A DNA stretch of 21,468 nt, taken from IMG/VR virus record IMGVR_UViG_3300036979_000109, positions 1 to 21,468 of that record. One strand, 5' to 3'. The position numbers were made by a program, and so were the translations under genes. This stretch comes from a virus. Below the pieces are notes generated by a model. That model ran no database searches, had not been told where the DNA came from, and worked only from the letters and a program-made list of their open reading frames with translations. Positions within the stretch are counted from its first letter, which is position 1. Every line of letters begins with the position of its first letter. Of this stretch, positions 6,946-11,411 are shown piece by piece.

Positions 6946-7353
6946 TCAGTCCTTCGGATCAATGATGACGCGCTCGATCTTCTGGATGATCGCGCCGCCG
7001 TCTGGGCCGCTGTGTTCGCTCTTCACCGTGTCGTTCCAGTCCGCACGGAAACGGTTCTTCATGTTGAAGATCCATGCTGTTGCGTTGAAGCCGTCGATTT
7101 CGCCCCTTACGCCCTTCAGACCAAGACGCTCCCACTCAAGTTTTTGCAAGCGTAAAGCCTCTGCCAGCTTTTCGGAGGGGAAGTCTTCGGGGAACTCAGC
7201 CATGTATCGCTCAACTGTATCCCAATCAGCCAGTGGGAAACTTGCCTTTGAGAAGCCTTCCGCCAAATGTGAGCAAACAGCCTCGCACGCCGCTTTGCGT
7301 TCTTCTGGTGTCTTCCACTTGACGTTGAAGTTGTTGTTCTTAGGAGCGGGCAT
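6946..7353 (-). CDS. terS: terminase small subunit
   Basis: A 135-residue DNA-recognition subunit of the packaging complex. The N-terminus MPAPKNNNF is the familiar opening of Sf6/P22-style small terminases. Residues 15-45 form a charged helical region, and the C-terminal third contains FNATAWIFNMKNRFRADWND followed by SGPDGGAIIQKIERVIIDP, a combination seen in many phage small terminases. It would bind the pac or cos site and recruit TerL. It is the second gene of the late packaging operon, overlaps the GIY-YIG gene by 14 bases and ends 3 bases before the polyvalent-protein start. TerL lies one gene further on rather than directly adjacent, which is unusual. The call is from sequence recall plus position. 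Confidence 0.85.
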   Translation of the reverse strand: MPAPKNNNFNVKWKTPEERKAACEAVCSHLAEGFSKASFPLADWDTVERYMAEFPEDFPSEKLAEALRLQKLEWERLGLKGVRGEIDGFNATAWIFNMKNRFRADWNDTVKSEHSGPDGGAIIQKIERVIIDPKD

Positions 7354-7861
7354 CTATCGCTTCCCTCCATGCTTTGCATTGTCCGCCGATGGCGCTTGCT
7401 GCGAAAATATCAGAAAACCTCTTCTCAAGCGATAGCCTGTCTTGCTGTGATAAGGTTGCGACGTGACGCTTCAACCACTCGCACGACTGTCCGAAGGCAT
7501 TGCGCATGTGACGCATGTATATTGTTGACGGCAACTGCAGACCAGCGACGGCCCAAGGCTTTGTGCTTTTTGCATACCGCAGCGCCTCATCCTTGCTGAG
7601 TATAAGGTTTACCAATTCAGATCTTGCTGAGATTTCCTCAAATTCAGCTTCAGTCAGATTGTCTGGATCATCTCTCAAAACTACTGGGTTGACGCCGTGC
7701 AAAAAAATCATATCGGCCAATCCGCCGTTCTGATGAAACCTGCCAGATTTATAGGCCGAAATACGTTTTTTTAGGTTTTTGGTTTGACCAACGTAAAAAA
7801 CTTTTCCGTCTCGGTCCACCAACCCATAAATTACGCCTTTCGTTGATCTTCCAAGCGGCAT
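7340..7861 (-). CDS. GIY-YIG family endonuclease (homing-type, free-standing)
   Basis: A 173-residue protein. Residues 9-40 carry the GIY-YIG core: VIYGLVDRDGKVFYVGQTKN, with Y12 and the YVG triad at 24-26, followed by KKRISAY with the catalytic Arg (R33). The metal-binding Glu probably lies in TEAEFEE (70-76). Residues 90-173 are helical, of unknown fold, and may recognise DNA. Free-standing GIY-YIG enzymes are commonly mobile homing nucleases, and packaging genes are a frequent insertion point. It is the first gene of the late operon after the terminator at 7928-7957. ATG 7861 follows AAGGTGGG. It is more AT-rich than its neighbours, consistent with transfer. It could also assist DNA processing at the packaging site. 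Confidence 0.85.
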   Translation of the reverse strand: MPLGRSTKGVIYGLVDRDGKVFYVGQTKNLKKRISAYKSGRFHQNGGLADMIFLHGVNPVVLRDDPDNLTEAEFEEISARSELVNLILSKDEALRYAKSTKPWAVAGLQLPSTIYMRHMRNAFGQSCEWLKRHVATLSQQDRLSLEKRFSDIFAASAIGGQCKAWREAIDARS

Positions 7862-8000: not shown

Positions 8001-8219
8001 TTACCGCTTGACGGCGAGATATGCAAACAGTCCTTTGCTGACGCGCTTGCAGAACAGCAGGCACATGCCGGCGTCTGAGGCTGCTGCGGCATCGAGGCGG
8101 TGCGGGCCGCCGCAGTGCTGGCCGATCCAGTACAAGATCCTGTCGCCCTTCTTGGCCTCATGCAAGGCCAGCGGGAATATGCCGCGATGCAGGCCGGTGA
8201 TGTCGGTTGGATCTTTCAC
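8001..8219 (-). CDS. conserved-looking small phage protein, unknown function
   Basis: A 72-residue protein starting with GTG at 8219, whose first bases overlap the TGA of the preceding gene as GTGA. The overlap is the main support for the reading frame. Visible features are a mid-protein ILYWIGQHCGGPHRLDA segment and a hydrophobic C-terminus, CLLFCKRVSKGLFAYLAVKR, with three cysteines in all. The two CxxG/CxxxC-like clusters and a histidine could bind metal, but this is not shown. It is the last gene of the early minus-strand operon, before the terminator. I do not recognise a named family. The overlapping 95-codon frame on the same strand (7874-8161) has no such context and is judged a shadow. 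Confidence 0.6.
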   Translation of the reverse strand: MKDPTDITGLHRGIFPLALHEAKKGDRILYWIGQHCGGPHRLDAAAASDAGMCLLFCKRVSKGLFAYLAVKR

Positions 8220-8800
8220 TCAATCACCCCGTCGCTGAGAAAGTCAAAGTCATCTTCCAGATCGGCCTGCGGTCGGCGCACGGCTTTCACCTCGGCACCG
8301 GGGAAGGATAGCTTGATTGCGTCCACAAGGCCATTGCGGTGAGCGTGCAGGGCCACTGCGACTTCCCTGAGCGTGTGGATGGCGATGCCTGGACGCTTGG
8401 CGTATGCAGCGGGCCACTGGCGTCCATCCTCGATGATGCCGAATGTTGTGCCTTCGTATTTGTATTCCCAGATCATGGGGTCCGAGACGGGCCGACCGAG
8501 GCTGACGGCTTCGGCGTCCATCGCTGCCAGCCCGCGCAGGCAGACCTCGACCCAGAATTTCACCTTGTCGGGATCTTGTGCGTCGATGGCACCGTTCAGG
8601 CCAGCGACGGCCTTGCCCCATTTCGCGGCGCTCTCAACCGAGACAAGTTCTGGCAGGCGATCCACGCCCCAGCGTTTGTCCATCTCGCGGACAGCCTTGT
8701 CGAAGGGTGCCAACGACAGGTCCGCTTTGATCTCGTTTGCCGTCGCACCCCTGTGCAGGATGCGGTCGTCTTTCTTCTGCCGGGTTGGTCTCTGTGCCAT
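8216..8800 (-). CDS. hypothetical protein of the early operon (194 aa)
   Basis: A soluble, mixed-charge protein with no signal or membrane segment. Residues 1-40 are basic and then helical (KKDDRILHRGATANEIKADL). Residues 45-110 are helical with conserved-looking Trp residues (AAKWGKAVAGLNGAIDAQDP). The middle contains IWEYKYEGTTFGIIEDG, a beta-rich stretch, and the C-terminal tail is acidic (ADLEDDFDFLSDGVIE). The acidic end is reminiscent of proteins that act on ssDNA complexes, but no annealase or nuclease motif is visible. ATG 8800 has a strong AGAGGAG site. Its place right after the primase-helicase and the repeat array suggests a replication or recombination accessory role, which is inference only. 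Confidence 0.8.
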   Translation of the reverse strand: MAQRPTRQKKDDRILHRGATANEIKADLSLAPFDKAVREMDKRWGVDRLPELVSVESAAKWGKAVAGLNGAIDAQDPDKVKFWVEVCLRGLAAMDAEAVSLGRPVSDPMIWEYKYEGTTFGIIEDGRQWPAAYAKRPGIAIHTLREVAVALHAHRNGLVDAIKLSFPGAEVKAVRRPQADLEDDFDFLSDGVIE

Positions 8801-8822
8801 CGTTTAACTCCTCTCTGTTTTC

Positions 8823-8958
8823 CTCACCCTCACCTCACCTCACATAACCAACACCTTCACCTCCTCACCCCTCACCCCCTTTAGGGGGTGGGGTGAGGAG
8901 GAAGGGTGTTTTACCTCACCTTTCCTCACCTTTCCTCACCTGTGAGGCTCTAGGTGAG
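8823..8958. repeat. CTCACC repeat array (iteron-like) next to the primase-helicase gene
   Basis: The plus strand carries CTCACC at 8823, 8829, 8834, 8864, 8871, 8915, 8925 and 8935, a near match at 8839, and inverted copies (GGTGAG) at 8892 and 8953. The three copies at 8914-8940 are spaced exactly 10 bp (CCTCACCTTT repeated), so they face the same side of the helix. The array fills the 170-base gap between the primase-helicase stop and the next gene. It could be a replication origin, an operator, or an RNA-level control element. It is too irregular and too short for CRISPR. Confidence 0.7.
8850..8910. repeat. long imperfect palindrome inside the repeat array
   Basis: The two halves pair over about 26-28 bp around a TTTA centre at 8880-8883. 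The outer part AACACC..TTC pairs with GAA.GGTGTT, and the inner part CTCCTCACCCC pairs with GGGGTGAGGAG; 1-2 base bulges interrupt the stem. No T-run follows on either strand, so it is not a standard terminator. It could extrude as a cruciform or fold in the early transcript just upstream of the 8800 start. Confidence 0.7.
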
Positions 8959-8970
8959 GTGACTTTTTTA

Positions 8971-11292
8971 TCACACTTCGTCATGGCTGATCCATTCTCC
9001 GACCACCACGACGGCCACGTCTCGGGCCTGTCTTGGGTCTGTTATCCGCTCGACGGCCAGCACGTTTGTCTTGATCCACGTCTTCAGGATGGAGGCGATT
9101 TTGGCCTTCCCTTTCTTCTCTGTGATGTCGATGCCGAGCATGTCTGCTATCGGGACGCCAACCCAGTTCTTGGACTGCGAACTCTCTCTCAGAGACTCTC
9201 CAGCGGTGTGGGCGTCGGCCACGATCCTTTGGGCTGCTTTGGCATCCTTGCCGCTGATGCCGTCGAAGGCGTCTGGCAGGCTGTAAGGGATGCAGACACC
9301 GATCCACTCGCCGTTGTCGATCTTGACGCCCTCCATCTTGCGGTAGACCGCAGACGCCGCTGGCGGGGCCAGGTTGGCCTTGCCGTCATCCACGCGGAAG
9401 ATGCTGCGCGCCTCGGTCTCGTTGATGCCCAGCTTGGCTGCGTCGTCGGCTGACATGCGGTTGATCACGCGGGCCGCACGGGCTGCCCCGATCAGGCTTC
9501 CTGCGCCACGCACGCTGTCGATCGACGCATCCTCGCCGTTGCCTTTGCGGATGTGATGGACCAGGCCGATGGCAGACTTTGTCTCGTCAGCCACGCGCCT
9601 TATTTCCGCCACAATGGCGTTCACAGCCATGTTGTCGTTCTCGTTGATGTTGTGAGCGCCGACGAAGGGATCGATGAACACGCATCCGATCTGCTTTTCG
9701 GGGATCTTCTTGCAGAGGTATTCGACCAGCTTTGTGTTGGGCAGGACGCCGTCGCGTGTCTGGATGCCGAACTTGAGGCTGAAGTCTCGGCCAGCGTTGA
9801 CGAACAGGCGGCCCTCGACCTCGGCGGGCTTGATGCCATAGTGGCGCATCGCAGACAGCACGCGGCGCTGGATCTCTTCCAGCGGGTCTTCAAGGTTGAC
9901 GATCCACACGTTGGTGCGCTCTTTGACATCCTCGCCAAGCAGCGGGCGCCCTGTCACGATGGCCAGGGCTTCCACGATCTGAAGCGATGTCTTGCCGATG
10001 CCGCCAGCGGATGCCAGCACGCTGACGAAGGAGCGCAGGTAATGGTGGGCATAGATCCACTTGCGCGGCTCGATGCTGGCCTCGTCGAACATGTCGTAGA
10101 GGCTGGGCCAGTCTGGGGCTGCGTCAGGCGCGTCTGCCGGCGCGTCGGGGATCTCGGGCGGCGCTGCATCGTCTTCGGAAGAGATCGCGCTGGCAGGTGC
10201 CTCTGACGCAGCGGTCGGGGCGATGTAGTCGAAATCATCCATTCCGTTGTCTGGCATCTCGTTGCGGGCCGGGTTGATCTCGGCACCATAGGCGCGCACG
10301 GCGCCGTCGAAGTCACCGTTGTGTTCGTAGTGGACGAACAGATCGAAAGCATCGCCCCAGCAATATGAGTTCTCGCCCAGAGACTTTGGCCTTCCCACGC
10401 CGGCGGCTGCGTCTGAGCCTGATAGGCTTACCCAATGCGATAAGAAGTTCTCTGTCGCGTAGCTGTGGCTCGTTTGATACCGAGAACGGTAATGCTGGGA
10501 TGATCCGCGCCGCTCATATTGATAGCGGGCCAGCAGATCCTCGATGCTGTGGTCAGCGTTGAAGGCATCGACCGGGCTGACCTCGTCGGGAAACTTCTGC
10601 CGTCGATCCGCACGCTGGCGCTCACGCTCGGCACGCGCACGGTCGGCCTGCTCTGCGGCCAGGCGGCGCTGTTCTGCCTTGCGGTGCAGTTCTTGCAGGA
10701 TCGGGCTGTCGGCGTCGAGGCGCAGCGGTTTGCCGCGAATGATGCGGTGTTCGTAGAAAATCGGAGACAGATCGGGGTTGCGGCGATCGATCGGCACGTT
10801 GGGCAGGTAGATCGGCTGGCCGCAGCGTGCCAGGGCGCCGTCAGGGTGTACGCCATTGACGTGCAGCAGATCGAAGAAGGCTGTTTGGATCTCTTCGTAT
10901 TCGGCACCGGTGACGACGGCGGCCAGCGGGATGATCGCGCGCCATTTGCGGTTCTCCGGGCTTGCCCCCGAGGATGAGTAGATCAGGATGCTGACATCAC
11001 CGCAGACGGCCTGCACGGCGTCTTGCACGTCGTCGATCGATGGGTTGCCACGGTCCACGTCGATGGCAAGCGCACGGTACGCGCCATGCTCACGCTGGGC
11101 TTCGTGGGCGCGTCCGTCGTGCGCCCGGTAGGTCGATGGGATAAAGAAATCAGCGTCGCGCTTTTCTTTGGCCTGCGGGGTCTGCACCAGCTTGACGATC
11201 TCGTTCCAGCCGATGCCTGGGTAGTATTCGCCGGGCTTGTCGATGAGCGTGAAGAAAGATCCTGGCGCTGTCAGGAAACGGACATCAGACAT
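8971..11292 (-). CDS. phage primase-helicase (AEP-like primase + RepA/AAA_25 helicase)
   Basis: A 773-residue replication protein. The N-terminal 1-190 looks like a primase-polymerase of the archaeo-eukaryotic type: acidic pair in RALAIDVDRG (D78, D80), then YSSSGASPENRKWRAIIPL (105-123), which resembles the sxH/basic block, and GQPIYLPNVP (158-167). Residues 200-235 are a highly charged helix. Residues 345-395 are an acidic Ala/Pro linker. From 405 it is a hexameric helicase core: Walker A SAGGIGKTS (428-436), Walker B IGCVFIDPF (D541), GLVHHIRKG (576-584), and SVRGAGSLIGAARAARVI (593-610), typical of RepA-like AAA_25 ATPases. The C-terminal 640-773 may be a winged domain. It should unwind DNA and prime at the phage origin. 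ATG 11292 has AAGGA 8 bases upstream. Confidence 0.9.
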   Translation of the reverse strand: MSDVRFLTAPGSFFTLIDKPGEYYPGIGWNEIVKLVQTPQAKEKRDADFFIPSTYRAHDGRAHEAQREHGAYRALAIDVDRGNPSIDDVQDAVQAVCGDVSILIYSSSGASPENRKWRAIIPLAAVVTGAEYEEIQTAFFDLLHVNGVHPDGALARCGQPIYLPNVPIDRRNPDLSPIFYEHRIIRGKPLRLDADSPILQELHRKAEQRRLAAEQADRARAERERQRADRRQKFPDEVSPVDAFNADHSIEDLLARYQYERRGSSQHYRSRYQTSHSYATENFLSHWVSLSGSDAAAGVGRPKSLGENSYCWGDAFDLFVHYEHNGDFDGAVRAYGAEINPARNEMPDNGMDDFDYIAPTAASEAPASAISSEDDAAPPEIPDAPADAPDAAPDWPSLYDMFDEASIEPRKWIYAHHYLRSFVSVLASAGGIGKTSLQIVEALAIVTGRPLLGEDVKERTNVWIVNLEDPLEEIQRRVLSAMRHYGIKPAEVEGRLFVNAGRDFSLKFGIQTRDGVLPNTKLVEYLCKKIPEKQIGCVFIDPFVGAHNINENDNMAVNAIVAEIRRVADETKSAIGLVHHIRKGNGEDASIDSVRGAGSLIGAARAARVINRMSADDAAKLGINETEARSIFRVDDGKANLAPPAASAVYRKMEGVKIDNGEWIGVCIPYSLPDAFDGISGKDAKAAQRIVADAHTAGESLRESSQSKNWVGVPIADMLGIDITEKKGKAKIASILKTWIKTNVLAVERITDPRQARDVAVVVVGEWISHDEV

Positions 11293-11338
11293 GCTTGATG
11301 TCCTTGTAATAGGCGCGCGTGGGCTGTATTATTTGCAT
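11285..11338 (-). CDS. putative 17-residue leader peptide overlapping the primase-helicase start
   Basis: A tiny frame (MQIIQPTRAYYKDIKHV) begins at ATG 11338 and is preceded by AGGAG at 9-base spacing. The same AGAGGAG-style site precedes the ssDNA-binding protein gene and the 8800 gene. Its TGA lies 8 bases inside the primase-helicase coding region, in a different frame, so ribosomes ending here could restart at 11292. It may be a coupling leader or a chance frame. Confidence 0.4.
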   Translation of the reverse strand: MQIIQPTRAYYKDIKHV

Positions 11339-11370
11339 TGGAAGGTTCTCCTCTCGCTTCCGTTAATTTG

Positions 11371-11401
11371 AACCCCGGCAAGTTGCTCGCTTGCCGGGGT
11401 T
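11371..11401. terminator. strong hairpin between the SSB and primase genes
   Basis: A perfect 12-bp stem, AACCCCGGCAAG/CTTGCCGGGGTT, with a 7-base loop. On the plus strand it is followed by CTTCTTT, so as an intrinsic terminator it best stops antisense transcription. On the minus (coding) strand the following bases are CAAATTAA, a poor T-run. There it may act as a partial terminator or as a 3' stabiliser of the SSB message. Confidence 0.6.
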
Positions 11402-11411
11402 CTTCTTTATG

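Follow-up and report, generated by a model that had tools for sequence, protein, structure and literature searches.

A candidate iteron-type replication origin that changes together with the C-terminal winged helix of a RepA-type primase-helicase in environmental phages

The pairing of an initiator with iterons of its own is already known in principle from SaPI Rep, lambda O and PLE RepA. SaPI Rep and SCCmec Cch2 are initiator helicases whose C-terminal domain reads short iterons situated immediately 3′ of the helicase gene (PMC7581432). Related lambdoid phages differ jointly in initiator and in iteron type, as seen with lambda O, P22 gp18 and phage L gp18 (PMC8022706). Among the PLE satellites of Vibrio cholerae, cognate pairing between the swapped DNA-binding domain of a RepA_N initiator and its origin has been proven experimentally, and the origin-directed nuclease Odn (PLE/ICP1) targets one PLE origin type (PMC8263062). 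At the oriV of RSF1010 the tasks are divided, with RepC reading iterons, RepA unwinding and RepB′ priming at stem-loops, while pRN1 ORF904 is a primase-helicase with a C-terminal winged helix and an origin stem-loop 3′ of its gene, the structure of which is kept despite sequence change (PMC4234260). In the literature that we searched, with most subscription journals outside its scope, there was no description of such an origin in a RepA-type phage group, of its constant core, or of cassette exchange as extensive as that reported here.

The DNA analysed here (the window) comprises positions 1-21,468 of the IMG/VR virus record IMGVR_UViG_3300036979_000109, 21,468 bases in all. It encodes a P22-type portal, terminase, scaffold, exonucleases and a Gp2.5-like protein, and blastn detected no direct homologues of its DNA in cultured phages. 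The original prediction placed a candidate replication origin at a cluster of CTCACC repeats, with eight direct and two inverted copies, three of them at exact 10-bp spacing. A recount on both strands recovered exactly these copies, starting on the + strand at 8823, 8829, 8834, 8864, 8871, 8915, 8925 and 8935, with − strand copies at 8892-8897 and 8953-8958. The repeat unit is better described as the 7-mer CCTCACC/GGTGAGG, of which 10 copies (8 direct, 2 inverted) occupy 138 bases at 8822-8959: CCTCACC on the + strand at 8822, 8828, 8833, 8863, 8870, 8914, 8924 and 8934, and GGTGAGG on the same strand at 8892 and 8953. Read in gene orientation, one inverted copy is followed by three direct copies 10 bp apart (8914-8940, + strand), by the palindrome CACCCCCTAAAGGGGGTG with facing copies, and by three further direct copies. 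The same phasing is found again in other repeat classes. Several short direct repeats, some helically phased, are thus present, as in iteron-type origins.

The number of CTCACC copies in the whole window is unremarkable (17 vs 10.9 expected); it is their clustering that stands above every dinucleotide-preserving shuffle of the window. Within 200 bases, CCTCAC occurs 12 times against a maximum of 6 in the shuffles, and CCTCACC 10 times against a maximum of 8 (mean 4.4). The array is the densest repeat of the window. The gap that contains it (8801-8970, 170 bp) is the larger of two beside the primase-helicase gene, and not the only sizeable one as had been proposed, a 119-bp gap lying on the other side at 11293-11411. 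An A+T-rich unwinding element and DnaA boxes are common to many origins, though not all. The gap is 48% A+T and has no A+T-rich stretch, and dependence on host DnaA was discarded because the window has no DnaA box.

Overlooked in the original prediction were a central palindrome, CACCCCCTTTAGGGGGTG (8873-8890), and a longer imperfect hairpin around it (8850-8911), with facing iterons in its arms. The palindrome contains the core CCTTTAGG at 8878-8885, the single occurrence of CCTWWAGG in the window. This core is constant across iteron classes, being present at near-fixed positions in 41 of 43 close and 25 of 32 distant arrays, whereas 151 kb of gene bodies contain it twice; class D (two loci) is without it. 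Its arms use several pair types, and compensatory changes maintain the pairing: positions 4-7 are paired in 41, 32, 36 and 28 of 42 distinct contexts, where base composition would give 57, 35, 40 and 32%. Arm pairing and core constancy therefore indicate a symmetric or hairpin element that is kept while the surrounding words change.

The array follows the stop codon of a 773-aa primase-helicase gene (8971-11292, − strand), the proposed initiator, which matches AAA_25. The best solved relative of its helicase part is the hexameric helicase RSF1010 RepA, matched by single sequence (E=4e-7), by profile (1g8y, E=2.1e-18) and by fold (1olo, Z 16.5); the window protein is thus a RepA-family helicase, with a predicted hexameric state. 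AlphaFold2 gives a confident winged helix near residues 680-765, within a C-terminal domain (residues 671-773; 8974-9282, − strand) that we predict to be iteron-binding and whose wing spans residues 745-764. Structure comparisons with Foldseek and VIA returned generic winged helices (RecQ RQC at Z 8-9, MarR/MecI at about 6), and no specific initiator relative was found in either list. The N-terminal part is probably a primase, judging from phage-family matches and from a weak match to RepB_primase, below the curated cut-off, in one plasmid relative. Downstream of the array lies a 194-aa gene (8216-8800, − strand) that is conserved across iteron classes, and a GIY-YIG endonuclease gene (7340-7861, − strand) is situated near the replication module.

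From IMG/VR we obtained 79 closely and 76 more distantly related loci. An array nearly always occupies the slot behind the gene, but its word varies, in a set of about 130 IMG/VR relatives, Roseobacter phages in culture and alphaproteobacterial plasmids. Among loci with enough sequence, at least six copies of one 6-mer directly follow the gene in 45 of 59 close and 65 of 78 more distant cases, compared with 6 of 108 and 1 of 266 control stretches taken inside genes; in most of the remaining loci the copies number 3-5, the words are mixed or the array is displaced. The close family uses GGTGAGG, GGTGGGG, GGTGGGA, GGTGTGG, GGTGTGC and GTGGCGC; the distant family uses TGTATAAA, CTACAAA, GTCCTAAA, ATGTGAAA, GTATGAA, TGTAGAA, CGTACCA, ATACCA and others. 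At least five members are cultured (CRP-811, -821, -822, -823 and -831), of which CRP-821 and CRP-831 carry GTATAAA and CRP-823 and CRP-811 carry CTACAAA, all four with the same synteny and layout. The paper describing this Roseobacter phage group contains neither the word iteron nor the word primase, and does not mention an origin of replication (PMC12629253).

Near-complete records of the window's class with fully listed places have a single array each. Dense short repeats (CCTGGTC, CTGTGCC, CGACCGA) also occur outside the origin slot, at L010:10639-11059, L018:12021-12201 and L073:4170-4370. In three loci (L207, L210 and L202) there is no recognisable array within 2.5 kb although the winged-helix C-terminus is intact; only degenerate remains are left in the slot, and loss or relocation of the origin is possible. 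A Parasedimentitalea locus (L166) is likewise without an array. A scan of genome contigs for prophage hosts found no more than three loci, two of which came from metagenome-assembled genomes.

Which word a phage carries follows the C-terminus of its primase-helicase. For 48 non-redundant close relatives, we compared repeat-word distance with protein-segment distance, and the Mantel correlation rose from 0.10, 0.05 and 0.05 for residues 1-200, 201-400 and 401-610 to 0.65 for residues 611-690 and 0.77 for residues 691-773. Given any of the three segments within residues 1-610, the partial correlation of residues 691-773 is about 0.76, and none of 2000 permutations was as high. In the distant family, the partial correlation reaches 0.51 over the C-terminal 85 residues, against 0.12 over the helicase. 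The 194-aa gene, which lies just as near the array on its opposite side, serves as a control and reaches only 0.16-0.23. Similarly, the tree of residues 1-610 requires 23 changes of repeat class (shuffled mean 23.1), so that class is scattered on it like shuffled labels, while the downstream-gene tree requires 19 and the C-terminal tree 7, the minimum being 5.

The exchange can be seen directly between close relatives. Some phages with 98% identity in residues 1-610 differ in both array and C-terminus, the flanks on either side being conserved, and in two pairs (the window with L020, and L012 with L052) a block of about 0.5-0.7 kb has been replaced between flanks of roughly 90-97% identity. 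In the window, this specificity cassette of C-terminal coding part plus array extends over approximately 8801-9470. Since the array adjoins the C-terminal coding region, part of the coupling could reflect joint transfer. However, the downstream-gene control and displaced arrays argue against this being the whole of it: in thirteen loci an insertion of 0.4-1.2 kb separates gene from array, and the word still matches the C-terminus. These insertions (L006, L008, L010, L011, L013, L016, L017, L022, L029, L030, L052, L057 and L075) lie between the primase stop codon and the array and leave array class unchanged; several contain small reading frames, and several share a similar leader (TTGCATCG...GAACTAGCAAACAAGGA).

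The array thus sits beside what appears to be its cognate initiator gene, in most relatives and with covariation confined to one neighbour. Two proteins had been suggested for footprinting, the primase-helicase and the 194-residue protein. The first is retained, its C-terminal winged helix being the likely binder, and the second was rejected because it does not covary with the repeats. Conservation in relatives, also suggested as a check, holds at the level of the array but not of the exact word, which has often changed despite 95% identical flanks and is then replaced by another array with its own predicted binding domain. To count repeats that are not conserved between conserved flanking genes as evidence against an origin would consequently mislead, because the word is swapped jointly with the predicted binding domain.

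Among the GGTGNNN classes, which are homologous, the residues that distinguish one class from another map to the wing. At position 755, GGTGAGG is accompanied by Q, GGTGGGG and GGTGGGA by K, GGTGTGC by R and GGTGTGG by T. Taken together, residues 754-755 are RQ with GGTGAGG (class A) and KK with GGTGGGG/GGTGGGA (class B) in 41 of 41 loci, including 10 absent from the set that revealed the pattern. For example, one locus (L201) has an A-like R at 749, yet KK at 754-755 and a GGTGGGG array. Seven independent pairs on the N-terminal tree all switch repeat and residue jointly; they show the cassette travelling, and not seven independent mutations, because C-terminal lineages are few, and for that reason the 754-755 pattern is partly inherited. 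We hypothesise that the wing tip may read the variable base of the GGTGNGG classes, with Gln matched to A and Lys to G.

The module is also found on circular alphaproteobacterial plasmids of Methylobacterium, Microvirga and Rhodoplanes. The repeats of Methylobacterium pVL1_6 are GGTGGGG, and inspection by eye gives a K where the window protein has residue 755; the gene table of this plasmid, which is incomplete, lists no other annotated replication initiator. Two Microvirga plasmids mix GGTGAGG and GGTGGGG words in their arrays. In the Rhodoplanes plasmid, the repeat is GGTGACGCA and the core CCCCTTTAGGGG, and the primase is fused to the helicase, this being the protein with the weak RepB_primase match. 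The three plasmids from Methylobacterium and Microvirga encode the primase in a gene of its own (annotated as toprim in 3/3, and Pfam-confirmed in the one tested), so the array goes with the helicase/winged-helix protein and not with one primase type. The Microvirga lotononidis plasmid (L307) additionally carries repB and repC; the module therefore need not be the maintenance origin there, and may serve lytic replication. Alongside a second Microvirga plasmid (L309), it and the Rhodoplanes plasmid (L310), which has terminase and portal genes, combine a RepA-type helicase with an array; these features suggest that L310 and L307 are phage-plasmids, L307 with two replicons.

We consider the array very likely to be a self-encoded replication origin of the iteron type, the comparative evidence of array conservation and of coupled change in word and winged helix being strong. 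The C-terminal winged helix would bind the 7-bp repeats, several of which would lie on one face of the DNA through their 10-bp spacing and the copies facing each other around the central palindrome. Binding would then assemble and load the hexameric RepA-type helicase. The core CCTWWAGG with its complementary arms would extrude as a hairpin, a putative single-strand initiation site at which the N-terminal primase part would start. This role for the core is proposed by analogy with RSF1010 and its division among RepC iterons, RepA unwinding and RepB′ stem-loop priming. Cumulative GC skew had been suggested as a further check. Its minimum in the window, at 9628, is near the array; in the complete circular genomes of CRP-821 and CRP-811 it lies off the array, at the point of divergent transcription. 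The skew thus speaks neither for nor against the array, and we set it aside as an origin marker.

Covariation establishes a partnership between protein and repeat but is silent on its purpose. The winged helix might accordingly bind the repeats as an operator and regulate its own operon, with replication starting elsewhere, and the location of the array between two co-directional genes would suit this. We regard it as unlikely. A search of 8700-9100, covering sigma-70 type alone, found no sigma-70-like promoter; the array follows the initiator gene instead of preceding it, stays with that gene where an inserted gene separates the downstream gene, and is found with the helicase also in plasmids where the neighbouring genes are different.

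Less probable still, in our estimate, is a role at the RNA level, in which the intergenic part of the transcript would act as a structured element, an attenuator or a terminator. Single-strand folding is strong (z −6.7 and −7.7), but folding and apparent pair covariation arise from inverted iterons alone, and the domain with which the word covaries is predicted to bind DNA. A direct and an inverted iteron form a terminator-like hairpin, CCTCACCTGTGAGGCTCTAGGTGAGG then TGACTTTTTT, at 8934-8959 on the + strand (T-run to 8967); if active, it would act on antisense transcription, and the main hairpin is without a T-run in the sense direction. There is a full-length match to Rfam RF02953 'DUF1874 RNA' at 8859-8953 on the − strand, with 29 bits against a gathering cut-off of 42, most likely a by-product of the inverted repeats. 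No Rfam family reached its gathering score in 20 relatives, and the RNA element was rejected on the sub-threshold nature of these matches. Partition (centromere-like) and packaging sites likewise use direct repeats near DNA-processing genes, and there are plasmids among the relatives, but such a site is highly improbable given that the word follows the helicase C-terminus, that terminase and portal lie several kb off in the window and that none of the loci examined has a gene of ParB type next to the array. Equally implausible are neutral tandem repeats carried along with the gene end by recombination, which would explain why array and adjacent C-terminal coding region move jointly but not why the gene on the other side fails to covary, why displaced arrays still match the C-terminus, why the core is conserved, or why distant families show the same layout built from unrelated words.

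As an iteron-type origin, the locus resembles each of the systems described above in part. It shares with SaPI Rep-ori the position of iterons directly 3′ of the helicase gene; their reading by the C-terminal domain is predicted here from covariation. SaPI Rep and Cch2 are AAA+/D5-like helicases, whereas the helicase here is RSF1010-RepA-like, with a RecA fold, and not of AAA+/SF3 type; many repeat words, coupled C-terminal swaps and a constant palindromic core also set it apart. As with lambda O, P22 gp18 and phage L gp18, part of the initiator changes together with iteron type, although their iterons lie inside the initiator gene and that initiator is not a helicase. PLE likewise has a DNA-binding domain and origin that covary and are swapped as a module, yet with a RepA_N initiator that is not a helicase, semi-palindromic iterons of about 30 bp and two groups only. 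pRN1 ORF904 shares the C-terminal winged helix and the hairpin 3′ of a primase-helicase gene, but has an SF3 helicase and no iterons. RSF1010 has the same helicase family (1g8y/1nlf/1olo) and iterons; its primase hairpins may have a counterpart in the palindromic core. Its three proteins are separate, whereas here neither a separate RepC nor a separate RepB′ is found: the predicted repeat-reading domain is fused to the helicase, as usually is the primase (apart from the separate toprim of three plasmids).

These findings point to the origin and initiator of a widespread environmental phage group, which is directly testable because at least five members are cultured. They suggest a helicase-primase that chooses its own origin, performing in one or two proteins the job that RSF1010 gives to three. 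The many natural pairs of repeat and winged helix represent a data set on the evolution of initiator specificity, and their frequent swapping raises the question of what pressure drives change of origin type. More tentatively, and with slightly less than even confidence, we propose that a single RepA-type primase-helicase backbone works with a large set of winged-helix/iteron cassettes, interchangeable with one another and arranged around a hairpin core that stays constant. Exchange would be so frequent that the type bears no relation to the phylogeny of the remainder of the protein. If true, this cassette set would suggest selection for origin diversity, arising from incompatibility between co-infecting phages, or from escape from origin-targeting defences and parasites, as with Odn and PLE.
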